The notes under the pieces are model-generated. The model was not told the origin of the DNA. It saw only the letters and a program-made list of their open reading frames with translations, and did not search any database. A stretch of DNA of 30,454 bases, taken from IMG/VR virus record IMGVR_UViG_3300030012_004996, positions 1-30,454 of that record, one strand, 5' to 3'. Every line of letters begins with the position of its first letter. Positions within the stretch are counted from its first letter, which is position 1. Both the position numbers and the translations under genes were made by a program. Source of the stretch: a virus. Below are positions 1,108-20,034 of this stretch, piece by piece.

Positions 1108-2205
1108 ATGGCGAGAAACATTGTAAAAAGTTATAATTCCATAGTGGCTACTTCAGATTCTACTGTGGCTTTCAGCACTGCGGATCAATCCTTGTTGTTA
1201 CATCAGCTAACACAGGGTTTAGAGTATTCTATAGGATATGAAAGACTAAAGTCAAAGCAAATTGGATCTCAAGATTTATCTACTGATGATATTTTTCAAC
1301 AACCAGATGTATCATTAAATATTACATATATTCCTGAACCTAATTTTTCTAATGAAATTCAAGGGAGATTTATTAACACAAATCCTATCTCCTCATTTGC
1401 AAACTTTTTTGAAAATACTACTGAAGCAGACTCTACGAATTTTTATGCGTTAATAACAAAAAATGCCGAAGATACTTTTTTAAATAAGCTGCAATTTTTT
1501 ACCTCACAAAATTTTAATGGAGATGACTCTATTGCTTTTGGCAATTGTTTTCCTACATCTTATAATTTAAGCTATTCTGTAGGATCTTTACCATCAGTTA
1601 GCACTCAATACATATGCTCTAATGTAGTTTTTGATCCACTAACTGGAACATCTATGGAGTCTCCAGCTATAAATTTAACTGGAGGAAATAATGATAATGT
1701 AGGAAGGTCATTGTTTGAGTTTGGTATAAACTCCACCAGCACAAGTATTGAAAAGGCTCCTCCTGTAGTTAATCCAGATAATACTAATAGTGATATCACT
1801 TTACAGAATTTACAAGTTGGAGGTCAAATAATTTCTGGAACACATTTAGTTCAATCTGTTGATATGAATGTATCATTACCAAGGGTTTCTTCTTACGGAT
1901 TAGGTAATGATTACGCTTACAACAGAAAAAGACAGTTCCCAGCAAATGGAACTTTTTCTGTTTCATCTTTAGTTTCAGGTTTAGAAAGTGGGGCTATGAC
2001 AGGAGTTTTATCCTCTGATAGAAATTATCAGTTTGATTTAAAATTAGAGGCTAGCGGAAAAGTAATGATTTATAGAATCGAAGATGCGAAGTTGACATCT
2101 TATAATTACTCTATGAATGTAAATGGAACAATGAGTTACGATGCTTCATTTAGTTTTGAAGTAACACAATCAAAAGGCTTAAAAGTAAGTGGAACTCGTT
2201 ACTAA
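1108..2205 (+). CDS. Tail tube-like structural protein, probable two-domain duplication
   Basis: This 365-residue protein is beta-rich, very low in charge clusters and rich in Ser, Thr and Asn, as expected for a tail tube or tail-associated virion protein. Two halves look related: TSYNLSYSVG at residues 150-159 matches TSYNYSMNVNG at 330-340, and each is preceded by about 120 residues of alternating strands with the same order of elements (a strand starting near residue 36 and again near 247). The segment between the halves, about 180-245, is Asn/Thr/Gly-rich and likely a linker. It starts at an ATG two bases after the previous stop, with AGGA eight bases upstream, one of the few Shine-Dalgarno-like sites in the window. 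Function is inferred from fold character and position beside the gpM-like gene. Confidence 0.5.
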   Translation: MARNIVKSYNSIVATSDSTVAFSTADQSLLLHQLTQGLEYSIGYERLKSKQIGSQDLSTDDIFQQPDVSLNITYIPEPNFSNEIQGRFINTNPISSFANFFENTTEADSTNFYALITKNAEDTFLNKLQFFTSQNFNGDDSIAFGNCFPTSYNLSYSVGSLPSVSTQYICSNVVFDPLTGTSMESPAINLTGGNNDNVGRSLFEFGINSTSTSIEKAPPVVNPDNTNSDITLQNLQVGGQIISGTHLVQSVDMNVSLPRVSSYGLGNDYAYNRKRQFPANGTFSVSSLVSGLESGAMTGVLSSDRNYQFDLKLEASGKVMIYRIEDAKLTSYNYSMNVNGTMSYDASFSFEVTQSKGLKVSGTRY

Positions 2206-2588
2206 TCGTAATCGATTTTAATATTTTTACTTTCGTAACCTTTTTCTTTAATCCTGTTTGGATGTTCCGCGCCTTTACGTTCCTTTTTGTAATTGTCGTA
2301 AAACTTCTCCTTTACTGGATCTAACCCACCACATTTCTCTGCTCTCTTCGCACTCAATTCAGCAGATAGGTCCATCATATCGCCTATAGTGCCTTTTTTG
2401 TTGTATGTGGCATCCATATACTGTTGACTACTAAAAGGATCGATAGAATTATCTATAGAAGCGTTGGGAGCAAGGAAAACCCTGCTCCACTCAACGCCAT
2501 CTTCTGAATATTTGTGTTCATCATTCATCCCTTGAATTACCTCTCGGTATTCATCTCTTTCAGGATGTTTATATACATAAATAGGCAT
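2202..2588 (-). CDS. FmdB-like small phage protein with degenerate zinc ribbon
   Basis: The 128-residue product opens with MPIYVYKHPE, the first-strand signature of FmdB/zinc-ribbon regulatory proteins common in T4-like marine phages (MPxYxYxCP). The expected zinc cysteines are missing: the usual CxxC position reads KHPERDE, and only one Cys remains, near residue 86 in KCGG. The rest is charged and largely helical, with a Lys-rich tail. The gene starts inside the Hsp20 stop codon (TAATG) and its own TAG overlaps the stop of the convergent tail gene. Role unknown; in relatives it lies near structural or regulatory genes. The family call rests on the N-terminal 45 residues only. Confidence 0.45.
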   Translation of the reverse strand: MPIYVYKHPERDEYREVIQGMNDEHKYSEDGVEWSRVFLAPNASIDNSIDPFSSQQYMDATYNKKGTIGDMMDLSAELSAKRAEKCGGLDPVKEKFYDNYKKERKGAEHPNRIKEKGYESKNIKIDYD

Positions 2589-2902
2589 TACTTAATGTCT
2601 ATTTTTTTTGCCTCCGCAATTGCCTTTTTGGGGAGAGTTATTTTTAAAAGACCGTTCTTTAATGAGGCAGATATATGGTCCTCTGCTACTAAATCATATA
2701 AAAATAATTGATATGATTTATGTCTACCTTCAGTTGTAGCATCTATTGTTAAGATATTATCTGTAACTTTAATATCTACATCTTTCTTACAAAAGCCAGC
2801 TAATTCGAATTCTGCAAGATAAACATCTCCAGATTCTTTGACTGGGTAAGTTTTATTTGTTTTGTTGATATCGTTAAGAATGTTGTTAATTAGTGTATTC
2901 AT
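2588..2902 (-). CDS. Hsp20/alpha-crystallin small heat-shock protein
   Basis: The 104-residue protein has the alpha-crystallin domain from about residue 20 to 100. Visible hallmarks are the early strand around YLAEFELAGFCKKDVDIKV, the strand NILTIDA, and the closing GLLKITLPK box (the family's G-x-L-x-I/V-x-I/L-P-K motif), followed by a short AKKIDIK end. It lacks the long N-terminal arm and the clear C-terminal I-x-I tail of cellular homologues. Hsp20 proteins are ATP-independent holdases; T4-like marine phages often carry one, presumably to protect virion or replication proteins during infection. It sits in the minus-strand operon between the glycosyltransferase and the FmdB-like gene. Confidence 0.9.
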   Translation of the reverse strand: MNTLINNILNDINKTNKTYPVKESGDVYLAEFELAGFCKKDVDIKVTDNILTIDATTEGRHKSYQLFLYDLVAEDHISASLKNGLLKITLPKKAIAEAKKIDIK

Positions 2903-2908
2903 ACTTAA

Positions 2909-4015
2909 TTAATTAACATTTATCGTGCCATTTAGTTTTTCCCCAAAAACAAGGGATAAAATAGCTTCGGTAGTTTTCTTGTATGTCATGTTGTCTCCCA
3001 TTTTGACACCCTCTGTGTTAACCTGTCCTACTTTAGATTCAGCTTTTTCCATAGCGGAGACAGCTTCATCTTCGGACCATGTATAAAAAACACCATTATT
3101 AAAATCATTTTTCTTAGTAAAAAACACTCCGTCTTCACAGGGTGTTGTGCCAGATGATTCAATCAAAATTGAGTTATCTTCAGTCGCCCAATCTTTATGA
3201 GATGTTTCATTTAAGACTACACTCCACTTGCCTAAACAAGTAGCATTAAAAGCTGGTATGTTCCAGCCTTCTCCTCCAGATAGACCTGTGAGGTCAATAT
3301 CTATAGCATTTAAAAACTCATTTACTTCAGAATTTTTAGCTAATCTTGGTATGATATTGAGATTGTTGTAGTTCGCACCTTGTGTAATATCATTCCAGAC
3401 ACCTTGCATTTGCTCTTGATTTAAAAAAGGATTGTTTATACAACACGAAAGTTGATATTTATTATTATTACCATACTTTTTTAACCAAGTTTGTATAATC
3501 TTTTTAGTATGTTTCCTATTCTCATACTTACCCATAAGGCCAAAATGGATAACATCTTTTAGATACTCTTTCCCAGTGACATGAAAGTCTTCATCAAAAC
3601 CAAGAGGAATGAATTTAGTATTTGCTAGACCTTTTTCTTTATAAAGATTTTCAGCGTATTTAGAAGAAAAGATAACAGTGTCTTGAAGACCTGCTATCGT
3701 AGTTTCTAGTTCTGTAGGTTCACTACATTCATAAAATGTAAACAAATGTTGATCTTTAGTCTTTCTGTTTTCAGAACCATTTAAATGCCATAGTTTAAAG
3801 GTGGGTGTAAATTTCGAAATCAATTTCCATCTATTGTTTATAGCATCTTCAATGTATTTTTTCAAATCATCACTTATATCAAAAGCAGATAAATCTGGGT
3901 CACCTATCGGAAAGATGCCCAGATTTACATCTAGCTTATGAAGCTCTCTGATAATGTTAAAACTAACATTACCAAAGCTCAAACTATTTAAGGGAGCTTC
4001 TAATATTAAGTTCAT
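2909..4015 (-). CDS. GT-B type glycosyltransferase (GT4-like)
   Basis: The 368-residue protein resembles group 1 (GT-B) glycosyltransferases. It starts with a short strand followed by the Asn/Gly-rich first turn (LNSLSFGNVSFNI), has the central Rossmann-like restart at about residue 175 (IHFGLMGKYENRKH), and the nucleotide-sugar-binding region near residues 265-290 (LTGLSGGEGWNIPAFNA), where Gly-Glu-Gly-Trp-Asn precedes the helix that usually contacts the donor. There is no signal peptide or membrane segment, so it should act in the cytoplasm. The start ATG overlaps the SSB stop (TAATG). It lies in the replication/regulation operon, well away from the main glycan cassette, so it may have a different acceptor, possibly DNA or a virion protein. 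Donor and acceptor are unknown. Confidence 0.65.
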   Translation of the reverse strand: MNLILEAPLNSLSFGNVSFNIIRELHKLDVNLGIFPIGDPDLSAFDISDDLKKYIEDAINNRWKLISKFTPTFKLWHLNGSENRKTKDQHLFTFYECSEPTELETTIAGLQDTVIFSSKYAENLYKEKGLANTKFIPLGFDEDFHVTGKEYLKDVIHFGLMGKYENRKHTKKIIQTWLKKYGNNNKYQLSCCINNPFLNQEQMQGVWNDITQGANYNNLNIIPRLAKNSEVNEFLNAIDIDLTGLSGGEGWNIPAFNATCLGKWSVVLNETSHKDWATEDNSILIESSGTTPCEDGVFFTKKNDFNNGVFYTWSEDEAVSAMEKAESKVGQVNTEGVKMGDNMTYKKTTEAILSLVFGEKLNGTINVN

Positions 4016-4377
4016 TAAAATGGAACATCGTCACCTTGAACATCACTTGAGCTACCGTCTCCGTCTCCCTCGGACTTTTTAGAACTCAAAAACTGAAGAT
4101 CTTTTCCACGAACAAAGTATTTACTGAATTTTTTGCCATCCTTTTCCCAAGATGACATGCATAGTTCTCCATTCACAATAAACTCTCTACCTTTTGACAA
4201 GTATTTTTCAGCAATCTCTGCTGTCTTGTCCCAATATTCAACATCTACGAAACACTTAGTTTTTGCATTCGATGTAGAGATACCAGCTCTTAGGCTGACT
4301 ACTTTTTTACCATTGTTGGTGGTTCTTACTTCTGGGTCTTTAACCAGATATGCTGCGGCTGTAATAGAATTATACAT
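4015..4377 (-). CDS. ssb: Single-stranded DNA-binding protein, bacterial type
   Basis: The 120-residue product is a bacterial-type SSB. The OB fold spans about residues 3-97, with the opening strand NSITAAAYLVKDPEVR, the core VDVEYWDKTAEIAEKYLSKG, and VNGELCMSSWEKDGKKFSKY, all in family order. A Gly/Ser/Asp-rich linker follows, and the protein ends in DDVPF, equivalent to the acidic DDDIPF tip that recruits replication and repair partners in bacteria. It is shorter than E. coli SSB mainly through a short linker. The phage therefore uses a bacterial SSB rather than a T4 gp32, matching its bacterial-type helicase and polymerase. It overlaps the sigma gene by 8 bp. Confidence 0.93.
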   Translation of the reverse strand: MYNSITAAAYLVKDPEVRTTNNGKKVVSLRAGISTSNAKTKCFVDVEYWDKTAEIAEKYLSKGREFIVNGELCMSSWEKDGKKFSKYFVRGKDLQFLSSKKSEGDGDGSSSDVQGDDVPF

Positions 4378-4981
4378 AATTTGCTTCTTTTTTTACTTTG
4401 TTAATAAATTTATTGTGGATGTTAATACACCCTTGGATGCTTAAATTAAGCTTTTTAGCTATATATCTCCAAGGGATGAGTTTATTGTTAGTCGATCCAT
4501 AGCGTAAGTCAACTATTTTTTTAACTCTTTCGTCTTCTTCTGTTTCTAAGCACCTTTCAAACACATTTAAAGCCTCTTCTTTGTCGATATCTTTAATGAA
4601 TGAATCACAGCTAGGTTCTATGTAAGTATTTTCATCGTCTATAAAACACTCTCTATTTTTCTTCTTCTTGTTCAAAGCATTGAGACACTTCCACTTAGTT
4701 TGGTTAGCTAAATGGGTAGAAAATTTAGTGTTCCTCGAAGGGTCGTAATTTAAAGCTGAATCATAAATTGTTATTTCTTTGTCTTCAACGATTAAATTTT
4801 TATCAAACACACATTGGGGGCTTGACATAAAATGATTAACCATTGTGTGAAATATGCCAGAGTGTCGATCAACTAAAGCTATTAGGCTTTCTTGATCAGC
4901 ATTATCCTCTTGTATTTTTGATATGAGTGTCAGGTCACTTTCCACTGAACCCATTCTATCGCCTGTATTTCCTTTTTCCAC
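4370..4981 (-). CDS. Phage sigma-70-family factor (gp55-like late sigma)
   Basis: The 203-residue protein has sigma region 2 at about residues 31-105: the YDPSRNTKFSTHLANQTKW segment matches the core-binding/-10 recognition helix FDPxRGxKFSTYAxxxIR. A helix-turn-helix like region 4 lies at about 150-200 (VDLRYGSTNNKLIPWRYIAKKLNLS). Regions 1 and 3 are absent, as in compact phage sigma factors such as T4 gp55, although gp55 has no clear region 4. The first in-frame start is GTG at 4981; an ATG at 4952-4954 (giving 194 aa) has AGG seven bases upstream and is a serious alternative. Two TATAAATA boxes lie 22-40 bp upstream on the same strand, suggesting late and possibly autoregulated expression. 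It should direct host RNA polymerase to phage promoters. Confidence 0.78.
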   Translation of the reverse strand: MEKGNTGDRMGSVESDLTLISKIQEDNADQESLIALVDRHSGIFHTMVNHFMSSPQCVFDKNLIVEDKEITIYDSALNYDPSRNTKFSTHLANQTKWKCLNALNKKKKNRECFIDDENTYIEPSCDSFIKDIDKEEALNVFERCLETEEDERVKKIVDLRYGSTNNKLIPWRYIAKKLNLSIQGCINIHNKFINKVKKEANYV

Positions 4982-8860: not shown

Positions 8861-9712
8861 ATGAGAGTATTATTTATATCTGACTTCACACTTGAACAAA
8901 GACAAGGTGGCGCTCAATTAAGCAATAAATTGCTTATCGATAAAGGCAGAGAGCTGGGTCTCGATATAAATGAACACCACCACAACTCATCAGTTACAGA
9001 TTTTCTATCGTCTTATGATTTGGTGATTAATTCTAATCTTGAGGCAATCAGTAAAATTTCTCCTGAAAAGCTTCCTTTTATTCTTAAAATGCCTAACTCA
9101 ATTAGGCTTGAACATGATTCTTGTTCATATTTGCATGATGATACTAGGTTAGAGTTATTTTCTAAATCTAAAAAGAATTTTTTCTTAAGTAATTATCACT
9201 ACAATTATTTTAAAAATCTATATGGGGATTACTTTCATAATGTAGAGATCGTTTACGATGCTATCGATACTTCTAAGTTCAAAAAATCGGACCATGAAAA
9301 AAAATATGATGTAGTTTATTGCGGTTATTTGCACCCCCTTAAAGGTTTGAATAACTTAATTAGGTTTGCTAATCAAAACCCAGATAGAAAAATAGATATT
9401 TTTGGTTGGGGAGAAATTTCTCCTCAAGAAACTTTTAAAGACTGTCCTAATATTAACTTCAATGGTCACGCCGAATATGAGGATATCCCTTTGATATTAC
9501 AGTCATCAAAAGCTATTTTTCATCAACCCATAGTGAATGAACCATTTTGCAGAATGATTGGTGAGGCGATTTTATGTGGTATTGAAGAGATTATAGGTGA
9601 CAAATCAAAAATAGGAAGCTATCTTGAATTTAATGATGTTGGCTATGAAAAGTTCAGGGATCGTTGTGAAAACGCTCCATCTATATTTTGGGAAAGGGTT
9701 TTAAATAAATGA
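8861..9712 (+). CDS. GT4-like glycosyltransferase (GT-B fold)
   Basis: The 283-residue protein opens with MRVLFISDFTLEQRQGGAQ, the typical first strand and Gly-rich loop of group 1 glycosyltransferases. The C-terminal nucleotide-sugar half begins near residue 144 (YDVVYCGYLHPLKGL), and an EX7E motif is present at E227-E235 (NEPFCRMIGE), the family's donor-binding signature. At 283 residues it is about 80 shorter than usual, with a reduced N-terminal domain. An upstream ATG at 8851 leads only to ten codons and is not used here. Its stop overlaps the next start by four bases. It is the first gene of the cassette; donor and acceptor are unknown. Confidence 0.8.
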   Translation: MRVLFISDFTLEQRQGGAQLSNKLLIDKGRELGLDINEHHHNSSVTDFLSSYDLVINSNLEAISKISPEKLPFILKMPNSIRLEHDSCSYLHDDTRLELFSKSKKNFFLSNYHYNYFKNLYGDYFHNVEIVYDAIDTSKFKKSDHEKKYDVVYCGYLHPLKGLNNLIRFANQNPDRKIDIFGWGEISPQETFKDCPNINFNGHAEYEDIPLILQSSKAIFHQPIVNEPFCRMIGEAILCGIEEIIGDKSKIGSYLEFNDVGYEKFRDRCENAPSIFWERVLNK

Positions 9713-10533
9713 AAATAATTATACCTATGGCGGGGACGGGTAATAGATTTGTAGAATCTGGTTACAAAGACCCTAAACCTTTAATAAAAGTAAATGGCAA
9801 AAGAATAATAGAATATATTTTGGATATGTTTGAAGAAGAGGACGTTGTATTTATATGTAACGAGACTCATCTTAATAACACAAAAATCTACGATGTCTTA
9901 AAAGACTTGAAGCCAAAAAGCAAAGTAATCTCTATGGAAAATCATAAGCTTGGTCCAGTTTATACTGTGACAAAAGCTTACAAAGAAATTGCAGACGATG
10001 AAGAAGTAATTATTTCTTATTGTGATAATCCTTATACTTGGGATAGGTCTCATTTTAACAACTATGTTAAAAATAATAAATTAGACGGTTGTATTTTATC
10101 TCATACAGGATTTCACCCTCACACTTTAGCTGAAACCAAAATGGCATATATAAAAGAAAAAAACAATTTGGTTCATGAAATAAAAGAAAAAGAATGTTAC
10201 ACTAATAATCCTATGAGCGAACACGCTTCGACAGGAACTTATTATTATTCGAAAGGCGAGTATGTAAAAAAATACTTTGATCTTGCTCTTGAAAACAATT
10301 TAACCCATAATGGAGAATATTATGTAACTCTTGTTTATAATCTTCTCGTAAAAGAAGGTTTAAAAGTTGGGTATTATGACACTGAATTTGCTACTGTTAT
10401 GGGAACGCCTGAAGAAGTAGAAAATTTTGAAGCATGGGCTAATATAATAAACGGAGGACAAGTTTCCAATGAGACAGATCTAATAAAGTGCTACCAGTAT
10501 TGGAAAAAATATCATGAAAACAATATACGTTGA
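9709..10533 (+). CDS. Sugar-phosphate nucleotidyltransferase-like protein (GT-A fold)
   Basis: The 274-residue protein has the nucleotidyltransferase signature at its N-terminus: PMAGTGNRF (residues 6-14, the G-x-G-x-R loop) followed by DPKPL (21-25), whose Lys contacts the phosphates. A Mg-binding SYCDNPYTW segment near residue 104 replaces the usual D-x-D strand end. The family makes NDP-sugars or similar activated compounds from an NTP and a sugar- or polyol-phosphate. It starts in the stop of the previous gene (ATGA) and overlaps the HAD phosphatase gene by 20 bp. Neighbouring phosphatase, kinase and aldolase genes suggest it activates an uncommon phosphorylated building block; the substrate cannot be read from sequence. 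Confidence 0.8.
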   Translation: MKIIIPMAGTGNRFVESGYKDPKPLIKVNGKRIIEYILDMFEEEDVVFICNETHLNNTKIYDVLKDLKPKSKVISMENHKLGPVYTVTKAYKEIADDEEVIISYCDNPYTWDRSHFNNYVKNNKLDGCILSHTGFHPHTLAETKMAYIKEKNNLVHEIKEKECYTNNPMSEHASTGTYYYSKGEYVKKYFDLALENNLTHNGEYYVTLVYNLLVKEGLKVGYYDTEFATVMGTPEEVENFEAWANIINGGQVSNETDLIKCYQYWKKYHENNIR

Positions 10534-10825
10534 TATAGATGAAACAATTTGCTTTCATGACGAAAGCATTCCCCTTGATGGAAACAGGGATTATAATGAT
10601 GCATCTCCTAGTCTTGAAAATATATCAAAGGTTAACAAATTATATGACGAAGGAAATAAAATCGTGTATTGGACCGCTAGAGGTAGCAGGAGTGGTATAG
10701 ATTGGACCGAATTTACGACCAAACAACTTGAGGAATGGGGTGTTAAATTTCACGAAGTAAGATGCGATAAACCTTATTATGATATCTTCATCGAAGATAG
10801 AAGCATCAGAATAGAAGAAATTTAA
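10514..10825 (+). CDS. Small HAD-superfamily phosphatase
   Basis: The 103-residue protein carries all HAD motifs in compact form: nucleophile loop D7-I-D9-E-T (DxDxT), motif II WTARG near residues 54-58, motif III Lys in CDKPYYD, and the closing acidic pair in FIEDRSI. No cap domain is present. This short type is typical of capsule and polysaccharide loci, where such enzymes dephosphorylate sugar-phosphate intermediates. It overlaps the nucleotidyltransferase gene by 20 bp, a strong sign of one pathway. Alternative: a general nucleotide or polynucleotide 3-phosphatase, less likely given its neighbours. Confidence 0.82.
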   Translation: MKTIYVDIDETICFHDESIPLDGNRDYNDASPSLENISKVNKLYDEGNKIVYWTARGSRSGIDWTEFTTKQLEEWGVKFHEVRCDKPYYDIFIEDRSIRIEEI

Positions 10826-10828
10826 TGG

Positions 10829-12154
10829 ATGGAAAAATCTAAAATTATTAGTGTGTCAGGTCCGTCAGGAGTTGGGAAAACAACAATTTCCCGAATGCTT
10901 GCTGCAATATGCGGCTTAGACCAAACGTTAATTTTAAGTGGGGATGATCTACACAAATGGCCCCGAAATCACAAAAAATGGCTCCAGTATACACACTTTG
11001 ATCCAGCGGCAAATTTTTTACAAACAGGATCTAAAGATCTTAAACTTTTAAAAACAGGCGAAAATATTTTTAGAAAAAAATATAACCATGATACAGGTAA
11101 CTTTACGAAACCCTTACTTATCAAGTCTAAAAAATATATTATAAACGAAGGGCTACATGCTTTTTATTTAAAAGATGACAGTTTAATTTCAGATATAAAA
11201 ATATACGTAGAGACTGAAAGTCATTTACAGGATAGCTGGAAAATAAAAAGAGACATAAGCAAAAGAGGATATAATTTATCTGAAGTAGTTGAAACTATTA
11301 ATCGCAGGAAAATTGATGAAGAAAAATATATTTTTCCTCAAAAAAATGACGCAGACGTTATAGTAACTTTTATTGAAAAAGATAAAAAAATTGAATTTAC
11401 TTATTCGTTAAAAAACAAAAAAGCAGAAGCTTTAATAATAGATTTGCACAAATTCTATAAAAGCCATAAAGAGTTTGTTGAGGTTGCTGATTGTTTATCT
11501 AAGCGCCATGACCTTACACAAAATAAAGGTGGTAACATGTCTTATAAATGTGGCAACTCATTAGTTATAAGCTCTTCTGGTTCATCTTTCCAAGAAGTAA
11601 CCTCTACTGATGGATTTACTTATTGCGACCATAATGGCCGACAAGTATTCTCTGAACAAAAACGACCGTCTATGGAAGTAGGCATACACTGTTTAATGAA
11701 GGAAAAGTGCGTTCTACATACTCACCCCAGTTATGTACTAGCTCTTTTATGCAGTAAGGAAGGAGAACAAATTATAAATAACCTTTTTGGTAAAGAATGT
11801 TCTTTAATTAATTATTACTGTCCAGGAAGCGAACTTCATAATAATTTTCCTTCTAATTCTTCCGTAGTTTTTGCTAAAAATCACGGACTATTCATTGGAG
11901 GTGAAACTCTTAAGTTCTGTTTAAATAAAACAAATAAAATTAATAAAAAAGTAAAACAATTTTTATTAAAAGATAAAAAACAAAAATATCTTTTTCCAGA
12001 TGCGTGTGTTTTAGAAGAAGAAAATTTATTTTTACATGGATTTGTAAAGTCTATTATAAAAGATTCCAATCTCACCATGCAGTATTTAGAAGATAATGAT
12101 GTCAAAAAAATATTGGACCTAGAAGAAGAGAAATATAGGAAAAAACAATCATGA
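10829..12154 (+). CDS. Fusion of P-loop (uridine kinase-like) kinase and class II aldolase
   Basis: The 441-residue product joins two enzymes. Residues 1 to about 190 are a P-loop kinase: Walker A GPSGVGKTT (11-19), a GDDLHKW segment (38-44) like the substrate-binding Asp of uridine kinase/phosphoribulokinase, and INEGLHAFY (105-113) at the Walker B position. Residues about 205-400 are a class II aldolase/adducin domain: NKGGNMS (232-238) phosphate loop, E283 at the acid/base site (PSMEVGIH), and the three zinc His H297, H299 (HTHP) and H352 (NHG). All catalytic residues of both halves are present. It likely phosphorylates a small sugar or polyol and cleaves, condenses or isomerises a phosphorylated ketose. 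Position between the HAD phosphatase and GDPD-like genes supports a precursor-making role. I do not know a characterised fusion of this type. Confidence 0.85.
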   Translation: MEKSKIISVSGPSGVGKTTISRMLAAICGLDQTLILSGDDLHKWPRNHKKWLQYTHFDPAANFLQTGSKDLKLLKTGENIFRKKYNHDTGNFTKPLLIKSKKYIINEGLHAFYLKDDSLISDIKIYVETESHLQDSWKIKRDISKRGYNLSEVVETINRRKIDEEKYIFPQKNDADVIVTFIEKDKKIEFTYSLKNKKAEALIIDLHKFYKSHKEFVEVADCLSKRHDLTQNKGGNMSYKCGNSLVISSSGSSFQEVTSTDGFTYCDHNGRQVFSEQKRPSMEVGIHCLMKEKCVLHTHPSYVLALLCSKEGEQIINNLFGKECSLINYYCPGSELHNNFPSNSSVVFAKNHGLFIGGETLKFCLNKTNKINKKVKQFLLKDKKQKYLFPDACVLEEENLFLHGFVKSIIKDSNLTMQYLEDNDVKKILDLEEEKYRKKQS

Positions 12155-12624
12155 TATTAATTTCACATCGCGGAAATATAGATGGTCCCAATCAAGATAA
12201 AGAAAACACTCATAGATATATACAAAAAGCTTTGGACGCAGGATATCATGTAGAAATTGATGTGTGGCGTATCAATGATAAATTATTTCTCGGTCATGAT
12301 AAACCCGAAATTTCTGTATGCTTGGATTGGATTACGTCAAGAAGACAAAAACTTTGGGTTCACGCTAAAAACGAAGAGGCTTTATTTTATTTGACATCTA
12401 ATACAAACCTTACTGTTTTTTTTCACGAAAAAGAAAAATATTCTGTTATATATAACGGAAGGGACATAGAAGGAAACATAATAAAAGGTGCAATATGGGC
12501 GCATAATTTAGAAAAATTGAGCAAAAATTGTATAATACCACTACTTGACCTAAAAGATTTGGCCCGAAAACCAAAAACAAAAATTTTAGGAATTTGTTCA
12601 GATTATATAGAATTAGTAAAATGA
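12151..12624 (+). CDS. GDPD-like phosphodiesterase, minimal form
   Basis: The 157-residue protein contains the full active-site set of glycerophosphodiester phosphodiesterases: H6-R7-G8, E18-N19, E35-x-D37 (HVEIDVW) and H49 in LFLGHD. It is about 100 residues shorter than typical GDPDs, and the C-terminal half of the TIM barrel looks reduced. No signal peptide is visible, unlike periplasmic homologues, so it should act in the cytoplasm. Such proteins hydrolyse glycerophosphodiesters; in this cassette it may act on a polyol-phosphodiester or an NDP-polyol intermediate. It begins in the ATGA overlap with the kinase-aldolase gene and ends in an ATGA overlap with the methyltransferase. Confidence 0.75.
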   Translation: MILISHRGNIDGPNQDKENTHRYIQKALDAGYHVEIDVWRINDKLFLGHDKPEISVCLDWITSRRQKLWVHAKNEEALFYLTSNTNLTVFFHEKEKYSVIYNGRDIEGNIIKGAIWAHNLEKLSKNCIIPLLDLKDLARKPKTKILGICSDYIELVK

Positions 12625-13289
12625 TAAATACAAAAAAATGTTCACAAGAAAGATGGCTTACTGCTCAAGAAACAGAATTTAATGTCTGGGGTGGATATAA
12701 TGTCGGTGATGGTGATGATTGGAGTGAATATTGGAAAACTCATATAAATAATTATGACGATATCCAAGGGAAGCATTTTGAAAACGTAATAGAAGTTGGT
12801 TGTGGACCCTTTGGGAAAAATTTATCTAGAGTCCTAGAGCTTATAACTTATAAAAATTTATATGTATTAGATCCTCTTTTAGATAAATATACTCACAAGG
12901 GCATGTCTGGTATATCTAATATGTGCAAAAACCTTAATATTGAAAAACTATCAATACCCCTAGAAGAATACACTGAACACAAAAACAAAATGGATTTGAT
13001 AATTTGTAACAATGTTTTAGATCACTGTTATGATTCTGATAAGTGTTTTGATAATATGTATGAATCCTTGAGAAGTGGAGGCATTTTAATATTTGGTAAT
13101 GATTTAAAAGATGAATCTGATATAGCTGTAGCTAGAGACGCGATGCATCCAATAATGCTACAAGAAGATTATCTTGAGCAAAAATTTTCAGTTTATGAGA
13201 GTGTTTTTAAAAAAATTATACCAAGAGAAGAGTGTAGAAACACTGAAGCTTGCTGCGGTTGCATCTTTACTGTTTTAAGAAAAAATTAA
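12621..13289 (+). CDS. SAM-dependent methyltransferase (class I)
   Basis: I start at ATG 12621 (222 aa), which overlaps the preceding stop as ATGA; the frame is open 27 bases further up but with no better start. Motif I is VIEVGCGPFG (residues 56-65), an acidic residue ends the next strand (YVLDP, D84), and the post-motif strand reads MDLIICNNVLDH. These are class I Rossmann methyltransferase features of the Methyltransf_11/23 type. No DNA-methylase catalytic motif (NPPY or PC) is present, so a small-molecule or sugar O-methyltransferase is likelier, which fits its place in the glycan cassette. The substrate is unknown. Confidence 0.82.
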   Translation: MINTKKCSQERWLTAQETEFNVWGGYNVGDGDDWSEYWKTHINNYDDIQGKHFENVIEVGCGPFGKNLSRVLELITYKNLYVLDPLLDKYTHKGMSGISNMCKNLNIEKLSIPLEEYTEHKNKMDLIICNNVLDHCYDSDKCFDNMYESLRSGGILIFGNDLKDESDIAVARDAMHPIMLQEDYLEQKFSVYESVFKKIIPREECRNTEACCGCIFTVLRKN

Positions 13290-13300
13290 AATAACTAAAA

Positions 13301-14065
13301 ATGAAAGTCGATAAAGTAATATGGTCTTCAAGTGCAGAGTATAGTGACTTCTGGAATATTAATTCATTAATTCATAATAAATTTCTTGGCCTAGATTGCG
13401 TTCTGCTCCTATACGGTAAAAAGAAAGAGCTTGGTTTAAGTGAAGAGTTTGGTAAAATTATAGAGCTTGATTTTGAAGAGGGCGCTCCTCATATACCGCA
13501 ACTAGTATTTAATAAGTGGCATTATACCAAAAATGAACCCGAAACCACTTGGCTTGTCGGAGATATTGATCAAATACCTTTACAAAAAAATCATTTTATT
13601 AATATAGTCAAAGATGTCCCTGAAGACTCTTATGCTCATTTAGCAGAAGATGCTTGTAGAAATGCAGGTGCTCCTTACTGGAAAGAAACAAAAGGGCCGA
13701 TAGTAGGGCATTATCACATAGCTAAAGGTAAAACTTTTGATAAAACTTTTAATTTAAGCAAGAGTCTTGTAGATCATACAAATACATTAGTGGAAAACTC
13801 TCAAAAAGATAAACAGCCTATATGGGCTTATGAAGAATGGTATACAGCAGACCTAATTAAATCTAGTCAAGTTGATTTTCATGGATTTAGTCGCGGGGGC
13901 GATGGAGCTTTAGGCTATAAAATTTGCAGATCACAAAATAGTATTTATGATCGCGAACTTCTTATTTCTCAAAAATATGTAGATTATCACTGCCCCCGTC
14001 CTTATAAAAAAAATCAAGACCAGATAAACTATATTCTAAAAATGGCGTGGGGAGAGCTAAGTTAA
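13301..14065 (+). CDS. Probable GT-A glycosyltransferase
   Basis: The 254-residue protein has a GT-A-like D-x-D motif at D88-I-D90 (WLVGDIDQIPL) after about 85 residues of alternating strands and helices, the expected distance for a nucleotide-sugar metal site. Several Trp/His-rich segments follow (APYWKETKGPIVGHYHIAK). No membrane segment is visible. The gene is separated from the methyltransferase by 11 bp with an A-rich leader and no Shine-Dalgarno. I do not recognise a named GT family; the call rests on the D-x-D placement and six glycosyltransferase-like genes around it. Confidence 0.55.
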   Translation: MKVDKVIWSSSAEYSDFWNINSLIHNKFLGLDCVLLLYGKKKELGLSEEFGKIIELDFEEGAPHIPQLVFNKWHYTKNEPETTWLVGDIDQIPLQKNHFINIVKDVPEDSYAHLAEDACRNAGAPYWKETKGPIVGHYHIAKGKTFDKTFNLSKSLVDHTNTLVENSQKDKQPIWAYEEWYTADLIKSSQVDFHGFSRGGDGALGYKICRSQNSIYDRELLISQKYVDYHCPRPYKKNQDQINYILKMAWGELS

Positions 14066-14066
14066 A

Positions 14067-14909
14067 ATGTTTTTATGTGGAACATATTTTAAACATCAAT
14101 GCAAGCTTCAACTAAGTAGTTACAAAGATGCTAGAACTTCAGAATTCTTTCCACAGGAGGATGAATCTTTAGACAATGATTATGTTTTTTGTAGACCTGA
14201 ACATTTATCTTTGTTGGATACTTATACTAAAATCGGTTCAGTAAAATTACCTGAAAAGTTTAACTTGGTTACGCATAATTCAGATATAAATTTTACAAGT
14301 AAAGAAATTGATTATGTTTTAAATTTATTTCCCAATATAGATACTTGGTATACTCAAAATCTTGTAGCTTCACACCCCAAAGTTAAACCAATACCTATTG
14401 GGATAGCCAATCCTAAATGGTCGCACGGGAACCAAGACAGGTTTACTAAAATACAATTAAAAAAAGTAAATAAATTCCAAGGGGTATATATAAACTTTAA
14501 CATCTCTACAAATCCAAGAGCTAGACAAGAGTGTTTGGCGAAGATTGGGTTTCCTTACAATTTACAATTAGAAAAAAACTATCCAGACGCTTCTTCTATA
14601 AAAGCTCACGATAATTTTGTTGAATCGACCCAAGAAAGATATTTAAGCGACATGGCAGCTTCTTATTTTACCATGTCTCCAATCGGTAATGGAGTAGATT
14701 GTCATAAAACTTGGGAGGCTCTCTACATGAAAAGTATACCTATTGTAACTAGATGGTATGGGGTAGAAAAGTTTAAAGAAATGGGTATACCTATTCTAAT
14801 AATAGACGATTGGTCAGAATTAAAAGACTTGGATTTATCTCCAGATCTTTACAATAAATTATGGCAAGATTTCGAACCAAGCTCCTTGAACTTTGAATTT
14901 TTTAAATGA
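14067..14909 (+). CDS. Exostosin-like glycosyltransferase
   Basis: The 280-residue protein carries the hallmark MSPIGNGVDCHKTWEALYM (residues about 203-221) followed by SIPIV, the nucleotide-sugar-binding pattern of exostosin/GT47-like and related viral glycosyltransferases (P-x-G-N-G-x-D-x-H-R-x-W-E-A-L). The first half is a poorly conserved Rossmann-like domain. There is no signal or membrane segment, in contrast to the Golgi relatives. It starts one base after the previous stop and its own stop overlaps the next start (ATGA). Donor is unknown. Confidence 0.7.
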   Translation: MFLCGTYFKHQCKLQLSSYKDARTSEFFPQEDESLDNDYVFCRPEHLSLLDTYTKIGSVKLPEKFNLVTHNSDINFTSKEIDYVLNLFPNIDTWYTQNLVASHPKVKPIPIGIANPKWSHGNQDRFTKIQLKKVNKFQGVYINFNISTNPRARQECLAKIGFPYNLQLEKNYPDASSIKAHDNFVESTQERYLSDMAASYFTMSPIGNGVDCHKTWEALYMKSIPIVTRWYGVEKFKEMGIPILIIDDWSELKDLDLSPDLYNKLWQDFEPSSLNFEFFK

Positions 14910-15592
14910 AAGATATAGACAAAATTTACATCATACATTATACAAAGCTAGGGGCAAGAAAGACTCACATGCAAACACAGATGGAAACTTGGTTCCCTGA
15001 TATTTCTCATGAGTTTGTAGAGGATTTTGATCAAGAAAAACTTTCTAGCGATATTATAAGCGATAACTTTGATCTAGAAACTTTTGAAAAAAAATTTGAA
15101 AGGAAAATGTTAATTTCCGAAATGTCTCTGTGCATGAAATATAAAAAAGCTGTATCAGATATAGTTGAATCCGATCAAGGAGAATATTTTTTTATTTTAG
15201 AGGATGACGTAATTTTTAAAGAAGACCCCATTGTTTATGTAAACAAAATGAATAAAATATGCCGCGACCATAATTTAAAATATGATTGCGTGTTTTTGGG
15301 AGAAGCGTGGATTAGAAAAGGGGACGACAGGGATATCTTTGGGAAAAAAGATCATCCAGCGACCAATGGGTTATGCACGGTTTTATATACAAGAGAGGCT
15401 CTAAAAAAATTAAACAATTATCTACAATCAAATAAAATTACTCAACCTTTGGATTGGGAATTCAACACAGCTTTTGAAAAAATGGATTTTCAAGTATATT
15501 GGGGCAAAGCTCTAACAAAACATGGTAGCGTGTTAGCTGTTGATGAAGATTCTCTAAAACATCTTAAATCAAGTCTAAGAGATTCTTACTAA
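14906..15592 (+). CDS. GT25-like glycosyltransferase
   Basis: The 228-residue protein matches the GT25 (LPS galactosyltransferase LgtB/LpsA-like) pattern: an N-terminal strand IYIIHYTKLGARKTHM, the helix SEMSLCMKYKKAV (residues 71-83, family SExGCxxSH-like), and the metal-binding FILEDDVIF with E99-D100-D101. A second acidic cluster (QPLDWEFNTAF) near residue 200 is where the family places its catalytic base. GT25 enzymes add galactose or glucose to LPS or proteins. The ATGA overlap at the start and the TAATG at the end tie it to its neighbours. Confidence 0.75.
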   Translation: MKDIDKIYIIHYTKLGARKTHMQTQMETWFPDISHEFVEDFDQEKLSSDIISDNFDLETFEKKFERKMLISEMSLCMKYKKAVSDIVESDQGEYFFILEDDVIFKEDPIVYVNKMNKICRDHNLKYDCVFLGEAWIRKGDDRDIFGKKDHPATNGLCTVLYTREALKKLNNYLQSNKITQPLDWEFNTAFEKMDFQVYWGKALTKHGSVLAVDEDSLKHLKSSLRDSY

Positions 15593-16527
15593 TGTCTAAA
15601 AAAATAAAACTAAAATTTTCTTCTCCTTGGGATTCGGCAGCAGATAACAATGCTCGTGTTTTATATAATTGGGGAAAGCTTCCTAAATGTTTTGAGCTAA
15701 CTACTAGTGATGATTATGACTATTTAATAGTGCTAAATCACAGCAATGAAATGTATTCTTCTCCCAAAGAAAAGAATATAGCTGTAACTATGGAGCCTAC
15801 GTGGAGCGTTAACTCATTAAAAGACTTAAATAAATATTGCGAACATGTAATTACCTGTGATCAAAAAATACAAGGAGAAAACGTACATCATACTTTTTCT
15901 TTTTTGTTTACTCACGATTCAAGAAATAATAGTTATACTAACAATTTATATGGGCCGACAGCTAATGAGTATTTAAAAGACGAATCTTTACCTGAAGACA
16001 TAGACAGTCCTGAATATCCTAAAAAAATGTCTTTCATGGTTGCTAATCATGGCGCATTGGCGGGAGCATCGCAGCCAGTATCGTCTAATTATTACATCAG
16101 AGAAAGTTTATTATTAAAAATTTTAAATTCAGATTTAGACATAGATATTTACGGTAAAGGTTGGTCTATAAATGACTCAAGGTACAAAGGCTCTCCTCCT
16201 CTAAAAAAGACAGCTCTTAAAAACTATAAATATTCTATATGCATGGAAAATAGCTGTGAAGATTTCTACATTTCTGAAAAATTTTTTGATGCGTTTTTAA
16301 ATAACTGCGTCCCTGTTTACTATGGTTGTTTGAAAATAAAAGAAGCTTACAATGAAAACGCTTTTATTACATTTAATCCAGAGGCTGATAATGTTATAAG
16401 TGAATTGAAAAATATAATGGAACAGCCAATCTCTTGGAGACTACCAGCTATTCAAGAATGCAAAAAAGATTACTTTGGCAAATATAACCTTTTGAAATAT
16501 CTACAAAAATTTATTAAAAAAATTTAA
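15592..16527 (+). CDS. GT10 family alpha-1,3/4-fucosyltransferase
   Basis: The 311-residue protein has the GT10 signature: SICMENSCEDFYISEKF (residues 215-231) followed by a VPVYYG turn (240-245), matching the conserved FxxxxENSxxxDYxTEKxxxAxxxGxxPVxxG block that binds GDP-fucose. No membrane anchor is present, as in bacterial FucT enzymes such as those of Helicobacter. The same cassette encodes Gmd and Fcl, which make GDP-L-fucose, so donor supply and transferase are encoded together, strong support for the assignment. The acceptor is unknown. Confidence 0.85.
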   Translation: MSKKIKLKFSSPWDSAADNNARVLYNWGKLPKCFELTTSDDYDYLIVLNHSNEMYSSPKEKNIAVTMEPTWSVNSLKDLNKYCEHVITCDQKIQGENVHHTFSFLFTHDSRNNSYTNNLYGPTANEYLKDESLPEDIDSPEYPKKMSFMVANHGALAGASQPVSSNYYIRESLLLKILNSDLDIDIYGKGWSINDSRYKGSPPLKKTALKNYKYSICMENSCEDFYISEKFFDAFLNNCVPVYYGCLKIKEAYNENAFITFNPEADNVISELKNIMEQPISWRLPAIQECKKDYFGKYNLLKYLQKFIKKI

Positions 16528-16529
16528 AA

Positions 16530-17180
16530 ATGAAAAAAATTATAAGCTTTGGTCTATGGGGAGAAAATCCTCGCTACACAATAGGAGCATTAAAAAATGC
16601 AGACCTAGCTAAAGAAATTTATCCTGATTGGATTTGCCGTTACTATGCTGGTAAATCTACACCAATAGAAATAATTAAAAGTTTGTATGAAAAAGATAAT
16701 ACAGAAATTATAATTATGAATGAGCAAGGTGACTGGAATGGGATGTTTTGGAGATTTTTTCCAGCTTCTGACAGTGATGTAGAAGTAATGATTTCTAGAG
16801 ACACTGATAGCCGTTTGTCAGAAAGAGAAAAAGCCGCTGTAGACGAATGGCTTGATAGTGATAAAGGTTTTCATATAATGAGAGACCACCCAGCGCATGG
16901 GACAGAAATACTTGGAGGAATGTGGGGCGCGAAATCAGGTTCAATCCCTCAAATGAAAACTCTTATACTAGAATACTCAAAAGGTAATTTTTGGCAGGTG
17001 GATCAAAATTTTTTAAAGGAAAAAATATACCCAATAGTAAAAGACAACTGTTATGTCCATGATGAATTTTTTGAAAAAAAACCTTTTCCAACTATAAGAA
17101 AAGATGGTATTGATAAAAATGGCAACCCAACTAATTTTATAGGAGAGCCTGTAAACGAAAAAGACGAAAGAATATGGTAG
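16530..17180 (+). CDS. Glycosyltransferase of a recurrent marine-phage family
   Basis: The 216-residue protein shows a GT-A-like motif S89-R-D91-T-D93-SRL preceded by a strand, and the helix REKAAVDEWLDSDKGFHIMRDHP typical of a glycosyltransferase-like family seen in polysaccharide loci and large marine phages (start FGLWGENPRYTIGALKNA, later LGGMWGAKSG). It has no membrane segment. It starts two bases after the GT10 stop, and its end overlaps the epimerase start by 7 bp. Donor and acceptor are unknown; recognition is by pattern and moderately firm. Confidence 0.7.
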   Translation: MKKIISFGLWGENPRYTIGALKNADLAKEIYPDWICRYYAGKSTPIEIIKSLYEKDNTEIIIMNEQGDWNGMFWRFFPASDSDVEVMISRDTDSRLSEREKAAVDEWLDSDKGFHIMRDHPAHGTEILGGMWGAKSGSIPQMKTLILEYSKGNFWQVDQNFLKEKIYPIVKDNCYVHDEFFEKKPFPTIRKDGIDKNGNPTNFIGEPVNEKDERIW

Positions 17181-18079
17181 CAAAAAAAGCAATTGTAACA
17201 GGAGGAGCTGGGTTTATTGGTTCTCATATTGTAGATTACCTTCTCACAAAAGGGTGGTATGTTAAAGTGATAGATAATGAGTCTGCCGAGACTCATGATA
17301 AATTTTATTGGAATAAAAATTCAGAAAATCATGAAAAAGACATTTGTGATTATGACTCTATCAGACCTATATTCGATGGTGTAGACTTTGTGTTCCACTT
17401 GGCCGCAGAGTCGAGGATTCAACCCACTTTAGATAATCCAATATTAGCCGCTGAAGTTAATACGGTAGGTACATGCACAATACTTCAATGTGCGAAGGAG
17501 GCGGGAATTAAAAGAGTTGTTTATAGTTCTACTTCAGCTTCTTATGGCTTAATTAATAAAATACCTAATGAGGAATCGATGAGGACTGACTGTCTTAATC
17601 CATATTCAGTAAGCAAGGTGTCTGGCGAAGAATTTTGCAAAATTTATACAAATTTGTTTGGTCTAGAGACTGTTGTTCTAAGATATTTTAATGTATATGG
17701 AGAGCGTCAACCATTAATTGGCCAATATGCTCCAGTTATTGGTTTGTTTTTGAAACAAAAAAAAGAAGGTAAGCCTATGACAATAATTGGAGATGGATTA
17801 CAGCGCAGAGATTTTACCTATGTTAAAGATGTCGTTAATGCTAATTTTTTATCTTCCCAAAGCAATCATGTCTCTGGAGAAGTGATTAATGTAGGAACAG
17901 GGGAAAACTATAGCATATTAGAGTTAGCTCAAGAAATAGGTGGAGATTATGAATTCATTGAACCAAGGAAAGGGGAATTGAGAGAAAGTTTAGCTGACAA
18001 TTCTAAAGCTAAAAAACTTTTAAAGTGGAGACCAAAAACTAATTTAAAAGAATGGATAAAAGCACAACAAAAAAAATAG
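17174..18079 (+). CDS. NAD-dependent sugar epimerase/dehydratase (SDR, GalE-like)
   Basis: The 301-residue protein is an extended SDR enzyme. The NAD-binding GGAGFIG is at residues 10-16, the active-site SSTSASYG at 118-125, and the catalytic pair Y144/K148 in NPYSVSK. RYFNVYGERQ and GDGLQRRDFTYVKDV are the substrate-binding segments of UDP-hexose 4-epimerases and relatives such as WbpP. It probably interconverts an NDP-hexose, supplying a donor to one of the neighbouring transferases. Exact substrate cannot be fixed; NDP-glucose/galactose or their N-acetyl forms are the common ones. It overlaps fcl by 28 bp. Confidence 0.88.
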   Translation: MVAKKAIVTGGAGFIGSHIVDYLLTKGWYVKVIDNESAETHDKFYWNKNSENHEKDICDYDSIRPIFDGVDFVFHLAAESRIQPTLDNPILAAEVNTVGTCTILQCAKEAGIKRVVYSSTSASYGLINKIPNEESMRTDCLNPYSVSKVSGEEFCKIYTNLFGLETVVLRYFNVYGERQPLIGQYAPVIGLFLKQKKEGKPMTIIGDGLQRRDFTYVKDVVNANFLSSQSNHVSGEVINVGTGENYSILELAQEIGGDYEFIEPRKGELRESLADNSKAKKLLKWRPKTNLKEWIKAQQKK

Positions 18080-18981
18080 TTATTACTGGGGCGAATGGTT
18101 TTTTAGGACACCATTTAACAAAGAGATTAAGGGGTAAATACAATTTAATTACTCCTAGCAGTAGCGAATTAGATGTTACCTCATCTAAAGATTTTCATGA
18201 TTATCTCTTTTATCACCAACCTGATTATGTTATTCATTTGGCTGCTGCTTGTGGAGGTATTGGAGCGAATCAAAAATCCCCAGCAGATTTCTTTTTTAAG
18301 AATTCACAAATGAGCTTGAATGTTTTATCGGCTTGTCAGAATTTAAATATTAAAAAATTAATTACATTAGGAAGCGTTTGCTCTTATCCAAAGTTCACTC
18401 CAGTTCCATTTAAAGAAGAAAATATCTGGGATGGTTATCCTGAAGAAACAAATGCTCCTTATGGGATAGCTAAAAAAAATCTATTGGTTGGCTGTAAAGC
18501 TTATAATGATCAATATGGCAGTAATTTTATTCATTTAATCCCAGTCAATATGTATGGAGAGTATGATAATTTTAACCCTGAAAAGTCTCATGTTATTCCA
18601 GCTTTATTAAGAAAGTTTATTGAAGCTAAAAAAAACGGAGAAACTTCTGTAACTGTTTGGGGAGATGGGACTGCCTCTAGAGAATTTCTTTATGCTGGTG
18701 ACTGTGCTAAAGCTATAGAACTTTCTATAGAACGTTATGACTCTCCAGATCCGATCAATATAGGGACTGGAAAAGAAATATCAATTAAAAATCTTGTAAC
18801 TTTAATTAAAGATGTTGTTGGGTATACTGGTGAAATTGATTTTGACACTAGCAAGCCTAATGGTCAGCCTCGTAGATGTTTAGATATAAGCAAAGCTAAA
18901 GAACAATTAGGGTTTGTCGCAGAGACAAGCTTTAAGGAAGGCTTGGAAAAAACTTATAACTGGTATATGAATTTTAAATAA
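18052..18981 (+). CDS. fcl: GDP-L-fucose synthase
   Basis: The 309-residue protein is GDP-4-keto-6-deoxymannose 3,5-epimerase-4-reductase. The NADPH loop GANGFLG is at residues 13-19; S108, C110, Y137 and K141 correspond almost number-for-number to the E. coli enzyme's S107, C109, Y136 and K140; and the NMYGEYDNFNPEKSHVIPAL block contains the catalytic His (about H180). GDGTASREFLY is the diagnostic substrate segment. It produces GDP-L-fucose from the Gmd product. Its gene lies immediately before gmd and overlaps the epimerase, and the GT10 gene two genes upstream can use the product. Confidence 0.95.
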   Translation: MDKSTTKKIVITGANGFLGHHLTKRLRGKYNLITPSSSELDVTSSKDFHDYLFYHQPDYVIHLAAACGGIGANQKSPADFFFKNSQMSLNVLSACQNLNIKKLITLGSVCSYPKFTPVPFKEENIWDGYPEETNAPYGIAKKNLLVGCKAYNDQYGSNFIHLIPVNMYGEYDNFNPEKSHVIPALLRKFIEAKKNGETSVTVWGDGTASREFLYAGDCAKAIELSIERYDSPDPINIGTGKEISIKNLVTLIKDVVGYTGEIDFDTSKPNGQPRRCLDISKAKEQLGFVAETSFKEGLEKTYNWYMNFK

Positions 18982-18984
18982 ATA

Positions 18985-20034
18985 ATGAAAAAAGTATTAA
19001 TAACAGGCATTACAGGTCAAGACGGAAGCCTCATGGCTGATTACTTGCTCAAAAATACAGAGCATATGATTGTCGGAGGAGTGAGAAGGTTAAGTGTGGA
19101 GAATCATAAAAACATTAAACACTTAAAAGACAATCCTAATTTTTTTCTTATTGATTTAGATGTTGCCGATCCTCAAAATACAGAAAAAGTAATTTCAGAG
19201 CATAAGCCTGATTATTTTATTAATTTTGCAGCTAATTCTTTTGTCGGTAGTAGTTGGGATATGCCCTTTAACCACATGCAAACTAACTGCATGTCTGTTT
19301 TACACCAACTAGAAGCAATTCGTCGCCACTCCTCACATTGTCGATACTATAATGCTGGCAGCTCTGAAGAGTTTGGAGATGTTATTCAGTCTCCTCAAAC
19401 AGAAGACCACCCATTACGCCCTAGAAGCCCGTATGGAGCCTCTAAATGCGCCGCTAGACATTTAGTCAAGGTCTACAGAGATTCTTATGATATTTATGCA
19501 GTTCAAGGTTGGTTGTTTAATCATGAGGGAATAAGGAGAGGGGAGGAATTTGTTACTAGAAAAATCACTAGAAATGTCGCTAGGATTCTTGTGGATTATG
19601 AATCAGGCAAAAAAATAAAACCTTTACAATTAGGTAATCTAGATTCAAAAAGAGATTGGAGTGACGCTGAAGATTTTGTTCGAGGGGTATGGTTGATGTT
19701 GAATCAAGACAGAAAAGATCCAAAAGAATATGTTTTATCTTCCAACGAGACTCACACTATTAGAGAATTTGTGGAAGAAGCTTTTAATTTTGCTGGATTT
19801 CATAGAAGTCAATGCAAATGGAAGGGTGAAGGATTAGACGAAAAGTATTTTCACGGTCCTGATATTCTTGTAGAGATTAATAAAAATTTTTACAGACCAG
19901 CAGAGGTTGATTTGTTATGGGGGGACTCCACTAAAGCTAGAGAAGAGCTTGGTTGGGAACCAAAAACTAATTTTTTACAGCTTGTGAAAAAAATGGTTGA
20001 CTGCGATGTGGGATCTATTTACCCTTACCCGTGA
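18985..20034 (+). CDS. gmd: GDP-mannose 4,6-dehydratase
   Basis: The 349-residue protein starts with VLITGITGQDGSLMADYLL, the GMD NADP loop (G8-x-x-G11-x-x-G14). The active site shows S126 and E128 in AGSSEEFG and Y150/K154 in PYGASK. LGNLDSKRDWSDAEDFVRG is the strongly diagnostic GMD segment. It converts GDP-D-mannose, taken from the host, into GDP-4-keto-6-deoxy-D-mannose, the Fcl substrate (also the branch point to GDP-rhamnose and GDP-perosamine). Length is near the family norm. The gene ends the glycan cassette; its TGA overlaps the GTG start of the next gene. Confidence 0.96.
   Translation: MKKVLITGITGQDGSLMADYLLKNTEHMIVGGVRRLSVENHKNIKHLKDNPNFFLIDLDVADPQNTEKVISEHKPDYFINFAANSFVGSSWDMPFNHMQTNCMSVLHQLEAIRRHSSHCRYYNAGSSEEFGDVIQSPQTEDHPLRPRSPYGASKCAARHLVKVYRDSYDIYAVQGWLFNHEGIRRGEEFVTRKITRNVARILVDYESGKKIKPLQLGNLDSKRDWSDAEDFVRGVWLMLNQDRKDPKEYVLSSNETHTIREFVEEAFNFAGFHRSQCKWKGEGLDEKYFHGPDILVEINKNFYRPAEVDLLWGDSTKAREELGWEPKTNFLQLVKKMVDCDVGSIYPYP

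Follow-up and report, generated by a model that had tools for sequence, protein, structure and literature searches.

Class II phosphoribulokinases (PF00485, PRK07429) combine a P-loop kinase fold with an Asp/His dyad and His/Arg residues for the ribulose phosphate. To our knowledge, their product ribulose-1,5-bisphosphate (RuBP) is known almost solely as the substrate of RuBisCO. Class II aldolases, such as L-fuculose-1-phosphate aldolase (FucA) and the RhaD-type aldolases of aldolase/SDR fusions (PRK08324), share a fold, three metal-ligand histidines, a catalytic glutamate and an Asn/Ser/Gly phosphate site, and act on diverse substrates. Known gene pairs of a kinase with a class II aldolase are catabolic. 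Glycan synthesis has its own cassettes. Temperate phages carry Gtr O-antigen modification cassettes (GtrA-GtrB-GtrC), and the GDP- and ADP-heptose pathway, as is generally known, uses an isomerase, a kinase, a HAD phosphatase and a nucleotidyltransferase, proceeding through a bisphosphate. In the glycan clusters of cyanophages S-SM2 and Bellamy, genes for a nucleotidyltransferase (NTPT), a class II aldolase, a HAD phosphatase and a GDPD-like phosphodiesterase follow one another in that order. We describe a viral locus that shares these four functions with the cyanophage clusters and differs in having a kinase, to which the aldolase is fused, and an NTPT of one domain rather than two.

The locus lies in a 30.5-kb virus record from IMG/VR, the whole of which is called the window below. 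An open reading frame on the + strand (10829-12154) encodes a 441-aa protein with a phosphoribulokinase (PRK)-like domain (residues 1 to ~195; 10829-11413), a class II aldolase domain (residues ~207-390; 11447-11998) and a C-terminal extension (11987-12151). Pfam finds the PRK/uridine-kinase family at residues 6-182 (E 4e-34; 118 bits, cut-off 22) and Aldolase_II (PF00596) at residues 224-370 (E 1.5e-18; 67.7 bits, cut-off 22.2). The kinase has the motifs 11-GPSGVGKTT-19 (Walker A), GDD (38-40) and INEGLH (105-110), and the aldolase has N236, S250-G251, S281, E283, H297, H299 and H352. Among 31 aligned fused homologues, G11, S13, G14, G16, K17, D39, H42, R46, H87, R141, D142 and R146 are invariant in the kinase, as are E283, H297, H299 and H352 in the aldolase. 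With these homologues as input, an AlphaFold2 model spans both domains at a mean pLDDT of 90.7. The earlier note had proposed that both domains are fused in one phage protein with all the named residues present, and the reading frame, Pfam matches, conservation and model agree; the fusion is genuine, with two predicted complete active sites. Alignment identifies the C-terminal extension as shortened remnants of two segments, ALYPDHVVFLG and LLNWDAEKYR, of the unfused cassette aldolases described below.

The fused family was found by scanning IMG/VR with an alignment of the neighbouring NTPT and then applying home-made profiles to the reading frames; a scan with the fusion protein alone found none, its exact peptide patterns being too specific. 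There are 57 fused kinase-aldolase viral ORFs, 34 of them non-redundant at 90% (the window's included), and the others are 34-42% identical to that of the window. In the kinase tree all fused copies fall in one supported clade (98). It also takes in two unfused copies, L058 among them, while the unfused viral kinases L082 and L091 branch just outside, a picture that fits a single fusion event in viruses. On one contig (L058) the two halves are separate ORFs, as might be expected if a lost stop or an assembly error had joined two genes elsewhere, but its kinase is nearly identical to that of a fused copy (L057). A lost stop codon, raised earlier as a possible undoing of the fusion, is excluded by the 57 homologous fused ORFs, and their non-redundant number and single supported clade leave an artefact of any kind with a negligible probability. 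The fusion is common in aquatic viral contigs and absent from the 80 bacterial and archaeal loci examined. Against GenBank phages, the fusion protein gave one weak kinase-only match and the first 25 kb of the window no near match.

The kinase had been called uridine kinase-like; we relabel it phosphoribulokinase-like. Its best PDB matches are class II PRKs (6h7h, 6kev, 5b3f, 9qkp) at E values of ~1e-34 to 1e-28, against ~2e-7 for uridine kinases, and modelled residues 2-263 align to phosphoribulokinases with a Z score of 24.9. Both NCBIfam udk equivalog models stay far below cut-off, scoring 65.9 and 64.8 bits where 220 and 180 are required. H42 and R46 are of PRK type, where a bacterial Udk carries Tyr instead of the His and lacks the Arg; these two and the residues at 141 and 146 are the same His/Arg residues as in PRK, and the P-loop and Asp/His dyad are present. 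We take H42, R46, R141 and R146 to be the counterparts of the ribulose-5-phosphate residues mapped in Rhodobacter PRK. The catalytic dyad of AtPRK, Asp58/His106 (PMC9978339), becomes D39/H87 of the fusion when renumbered through the alignment to 6h7h, whose offset is constant. The kinase nevertheless differs from class II PRKs in lacking their C-terminal domain, and its NCBIfam PRK07429 match (174 bits, residues 3-188 only) does not reach the cut-off of 236 bits. H56, invariant in fused kinases and near-invariant in cassette kinases, is Pro in a true PRK (L003), and therefore the substrate of the fusion kinase may differ from exact ribulose-5-phosphate. Also unlike class II PRKs, these kinases are joined to an aldolase in phages or to a GT87-like membrane protein in bacteria, and they sit in glycan cassettes, mostly in RuBisCO-less genomes.

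In the aldolase half, modelled residues 207-385 align to FucA (Z 21.2), and a DHAP-bound Bacillus thuringiensis aldolase is also among the fold matches. The three metal-ligand histidines are invariant in 143/143 aligned cassette aldolases and E283 is present in 142/143, with one gap; the catalytic residues are kept throughout the cassettes, Prochlorococcus included. The fused domain thus has the Pfam score, fold, metal histidines, catalytic glutamate and Asn/Ser/Gly phosphate-site residues of a class II aldolase, which makes it a putative aldolase. It is set apart from the L-fuculose-1-phosphate and RhaD-type enzymes by its PRK-like partner and by linked genes for nucleotide-sugar synthesis and glycosyl transfer instead of sugar catabolism.

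Four genes are tightly packed at 9709-12624, all on the + strand. The NTPT gene (9709-10533) has a GlmU/RmlA/MobA-like fold and a Pfam NTP_transf_3 match; its product matches cyanophage and bacterial cassette NTPTs at 36-41% and, having a single domain, corresponds to domain 1 of the cassette enzyme, which has two. It is followed by a small HAD phosphatase gene (10514-10825; 65% to SSM2_207 of S-SM2), akin to capsule-biosynthesis phosphatases (PDB 9iqw, ‘capsule biosynthesis protein’, E 4e-12), then by the fusion gene, whose stop is overlapped by 4 bases by the gene for a short GDPD-like phosphodiesterase (12151-12624; 157 aa; 40% to SSM2_208). The latter has HRG...E.D...HD motifs, and its catalytic motif is kept in 81/81 homologues; searches with the gene gave no further functional clue. 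At 157 aa it is unusually short, the solved glycerophosphodiesterase 1v8e having 224 aa. Among the 55 other viral fused loci, the fusion and nucleotidyltransferase genes overlap by 4 bases in 50, a GDPD-like gene occurs in 54, and a HAD gene occurs in 36 and was not seen in 19. The fusion is part of a conserved nucleotide-sugar module (NTPT, HAD, GDPD), a tie absent from the earlier note.

The module lies inside a + strand glycan cassette (8861-20034) with several glycosyltransferases, a SAM methyltransferase, a nucleotide-sugar epimerase, a GDP-fucose synthase-like protein and a GDP-mannose dehydratase; no GtrA family match was found among the window ORFs scanned. Its 15592-20034 part holds GT10 fucosyltransferase-like, GDP-fucose synthase-like and GDP-mannose dehydratase genes, and the phage seems to have the capacity for GDP-fucose synthesis and fucose transfer. 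Elsewhere in the window, a replication block (25717-29635) encodes a DnaE-type polymerase III alpha core (27080-29635), a separate RNase T-like exonuclease (26451-27083) and a 245-aa protein upstream, with DnaB-like helicase and primase genes adjoining. A five-ORF block on the - strand (2202-4981) encodes what appear by eye to be an Hsp20-like, an SSB-like and a sigma-factor-like protein; three of the ORFs were scanned and gave no Pfam match.

An unfused form of the cassette is found in Pseudomonadota, Bacteroidota, Bacillota, Bdellovibrionota, Melainabacteria and others, in a Woesearchaeon, and on plasmids and prophage contigs. It encodes a two-domain nucleotidyltransferase, GtrA, a GT2 glycosyltransferase, a GDPD-like protein, a HAD phosphatase, a ~350-aa aldolase and a membrane protein-kinase. 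The last has ~700 aa, about nine hydrophobic segments and GT87/ALG3-like similarity, and its C-terminal half is the kinase; when the N-terminal half of the L082 kinase protein was searched, nothing more came to light about its function. These bacterial, plasmid and prophage relatives share GtrA, GT2 and GT-C-like membrane proteins with the Gtr O-antigen cassettes but differ in having dedicated kinase, aldolase, HAD, NTPT and GDPD genes for making the donor; the phage of the window has the donor genes and no GtrA. Since kinase and aldolase occur unfused in the same cassette, and the fusion keeps remnants of the C-terminal aldolase motifs, we regard the fusion as a compact form of two enzymes of a Gtr-like pathway. 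The cassette apparently represents a widespread, uncharacterised bacterial and viral pathway of surface-sugar decoration. One copy (L002 6022-14984) lies on a small IncR plasmid of Escherichia coli near IS26 and is present in 2/5,426 genomes, and a Woesearchaeota chain of 846 aa (L148 2472-5012) joins a GtrA/DPMS domain and a further N-terminal region to a PRK-like kinase.

Open-access literature on kinase, aldolase and O-antigen, on cyanophage aldolase, on Gtr with aldolase, on RuBP with O-antigen and on xylulose side chains yielded no description of such a pathway. Within that literature, the view that the kinase-aldolase pair has no characterised precedent holds; of the opposite prospect, a fusion both common and already characterised, the first half proved right, and for the second no account was found.

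Cyanophages lack the kinase. No kinase relative was found in the complete genomes of S-SM2 and Bellamy or in 15 kinase-less viral contigs, using same-cassette kinase profiles that do detect the fused loci. Six records without a kinase contain psbA/psbD, and no such gene was found in the viral records with a kinase that were searched; many of the records are fragments.

Decay of the kinase is seen in cellular genomes as well. In 13/13 distinct Prochlorococcus-family copies the GT87-like membrane protein is full-length (L108 10178-12262; L143 10460-12601; L182-L192), the dyad and substrate-site residues of its PRK-like domain are lost, and so, in most, is the P-loop lysine. Kinases of non-photosynthetic Melainabacteria retain dyad, P-loop and substrate site. 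A check of 13 sites in 130 kinases found 123 fully intact; the exceptions were the true PRK (L003), one truncated contig, a phage copy (H56Q), Prochlorococcus L143, Nitrosospira L164 (H42Y, R46Q, H87S), Sideroxydans L161 (H56D) and Anaerolineales L144 (H56P). RuBisCO searches, done after this check, gave strong matches for L164, L161, L144, L099, L108, L136 and 10/11 further Prochlorococcus-family genomes; none was found in the assembly of L143 itself, which was grouped as Prochlorococcus. Changes at family-invariant columns number 22 in L143, 4 in L144, 3 in L164, 2 in L099, 1 in L161 and 0 in L136, while the 58 other, RuBisCO-negative genomes average 0.33 (maximum 2), their kinases being essentially intact. 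The excess in RuBisCO-positive genomes has a one-sided p of 3e-4 (0.0015 without L143); the comparison ignores phylogeny, and the idea behind it arose after the first cyanobacterial cases. The exception is a Hylemonella MAG (L136), RuBisCO-positive with an intact kinase. Nitrosospira and Sideroxydans, Calvin-cycle (CBB) autotrophs with a detectable kinase, had been considered as counter-examples; of the two, Nitrosospira proved at residue level to have a broken kinase site. The losses may represent few independent events, perhaps one in a cyanophage lineage and one in a Prochlorococcus lineage. With the kinase lost or absent in Prochlorococcus and cyanophages and the aldolase residues invariant, the cassette can do without its kinase in a Calvin-cycle setting, but not without its aldolase.

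Upon the observed architecture, conservation and gene context, and upon the way the kinase has been lost among Calvin-cycle hosts and the phages that infect them, we build a pathway in which we infer the identity of RuBP, the direction, the aldolase reaction, the order of later steps and the sugar. The earlier suggestion of one dedicated pathway for a small phosphorylated sugar is very likely right; between the two directions it had offered, kinase to aldolase is the likely one. By the established chemistry of the two families, a PRK that phosphorylates a ketose-5-phosphate at C1 gives it a ketose-1-phosphate end, to which class II aldolases bind. The kinase would phosphorylate ribulose-5-phosphate, or a very similar ketose phosphate, at C1 to a 1,5-bisphosphate, whose ketose-1-phosphate (DHAP-like) end the fused aldolase would take up to cleave, re-condense or epimerise the molecule. 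The HAD phosphatase would strip one phosphate, the nucleotidyltransferase would activate the product, phage glycosyltransferases would transfer it, and the GDPD-like enzyme would have a conserved part. In a fused protein the bisphosphate would pass straight from kinase to aldolase, which could prevent the build-up of a compound wasteful in heterotrophs. The scheme shares with the heptose pathway the logic of bisphosphate, phosphatase and nucleotidyltransferase; it differs in that an aldolase replaces the isomerase and a PRK-type kinase the ribokinase- or GHMP-type one. As to the sugar, C4 epimerisation of RuBP would yield L-xylulose-1,5-bisphosphate. Xylulofuranose side chains occur in O-antigens (PMC11380512); that paper, on the Yersinia L-xylulose O-antigen, was checked as a lead and does not mention an aldolase. 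We lean slightly towards the fusion being a bifunctional nucleotide-sugar pathway enzyme whose kinase is a functional phosphoribulokinase and whose product decorates a glycan of the host surface or virion.

The loss pattern suggests that what the aldolase receives from the kinase, on the way to a nucleotide-activated sugar, is probably RuBP or else a different bisphosphate of the Calvin cycle. In its full form, the proposal is that RuBP is the entry metabolite of a widespread surface-sugar pathway of heterotrophic bacteria and viruses, in which a non-photosynthetic PRK, joined to the enzyme that uses RuBP, would produce it, and that cyanobacteria and cyanophages drop the kinase as the Calvin cycle supplies RuBP; we put its chances a little short of even. 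The reading of the kinase as a functional phosphoribulokinase draws on its nearness to PRKs in sequence, fold, dyad, H42 and R46, on the recurrence of kinase, aldolase, NTPT and GDPD together in the 55 fused loci and in unfused cassettes of many phyla, on the kinase, not the aldolase, being the part lost in Prochlorococcus, Nitrosospira and cyanophages, and on the excess of changes at invariant columns in RuBisCO-positive genomes and the psbA/psbD distribution. It is strained by the intact kinase of L136, by Sideroxydans differing at H56 only, by H56 itself and the missing PRK C-terminal domain, and by the 19 loci in which HAD was not seen; it also offers no route from a pentulose bisphosphate to a glycosyl donor and no account of GDPD. 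The main alternative kinase product is sedoheptulose-1,7-bisphosphate, formed by the same logic from sedoheptulose-7-phosphate, with the aldolase building a heptose- or tetrose-derived sugar. Like RuBP, this bisphosphate comes from the Calvin cycle, so the loss pattern fits, and a near-invariant H56 that is Pro in L003 would suit another substrate; yet none of the PRK residues tested, whether catalytic or at the ribulose-phosphate site, has been lost, and no heptose-specific enzyme is consistently linked. We judge such a bisphosphate of Calvin-cycle type unlikely.

Marginally less probable again is a kinase-aldolase pair in sugar synthesis whose substrate is unrelated to the Calvin cycle (another ketose phosphate, a tetrulose or a polyol), the decay in autotrophs being coincidental or a loss of that step. 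The substrate diversity of class II aldolases, the close folds of L-fuculose-1-phosphate- and DHAP-binding members and the intact L136 kinase would allow it, but kinase loss is associated with RuBisCO and with cyanophages, and the aldolase persists. A catabolic or salvage enzyme of the fuculose, 5-deoxyribose-disposal or 3-oxo-tetronate kinase/aldolase type, feeding DHAP to central metabolism, would agree with the described gene pairs and with the FucA and B. thuringiensis fold matches; we think it very improbable given that the constant neighbours are nucleotidyltransferase, GDPD and glycosyltransferase, GtrA and GT87-like genes and that the kinases of those pathways belong to other families. 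Hardly any credence attaches to a uridine or cytidine kinase that merely happens to be fused to an aldolase from some other pathway: the fold superfamily is the same, but the udk score of 66 bits against 220, the His42 in place of the Udk Tyr and the co-occurrence of both domains, unfused, in one cassette contradict it.

Behind the odd phage fusion stands what appears to be an undescribed glycan pathway, present across many phyla and among aquatic viruses. Should the link to RuBP prove true, PRK-like enzymes would serve a major function besides CO2 fixation, with consequences for the annotation of PRK in RuBisCO-lacking genomes and for ideas on the origin of PRK; it would also explain why phages of photosynthetic hosts differ so cleanly from the rest.
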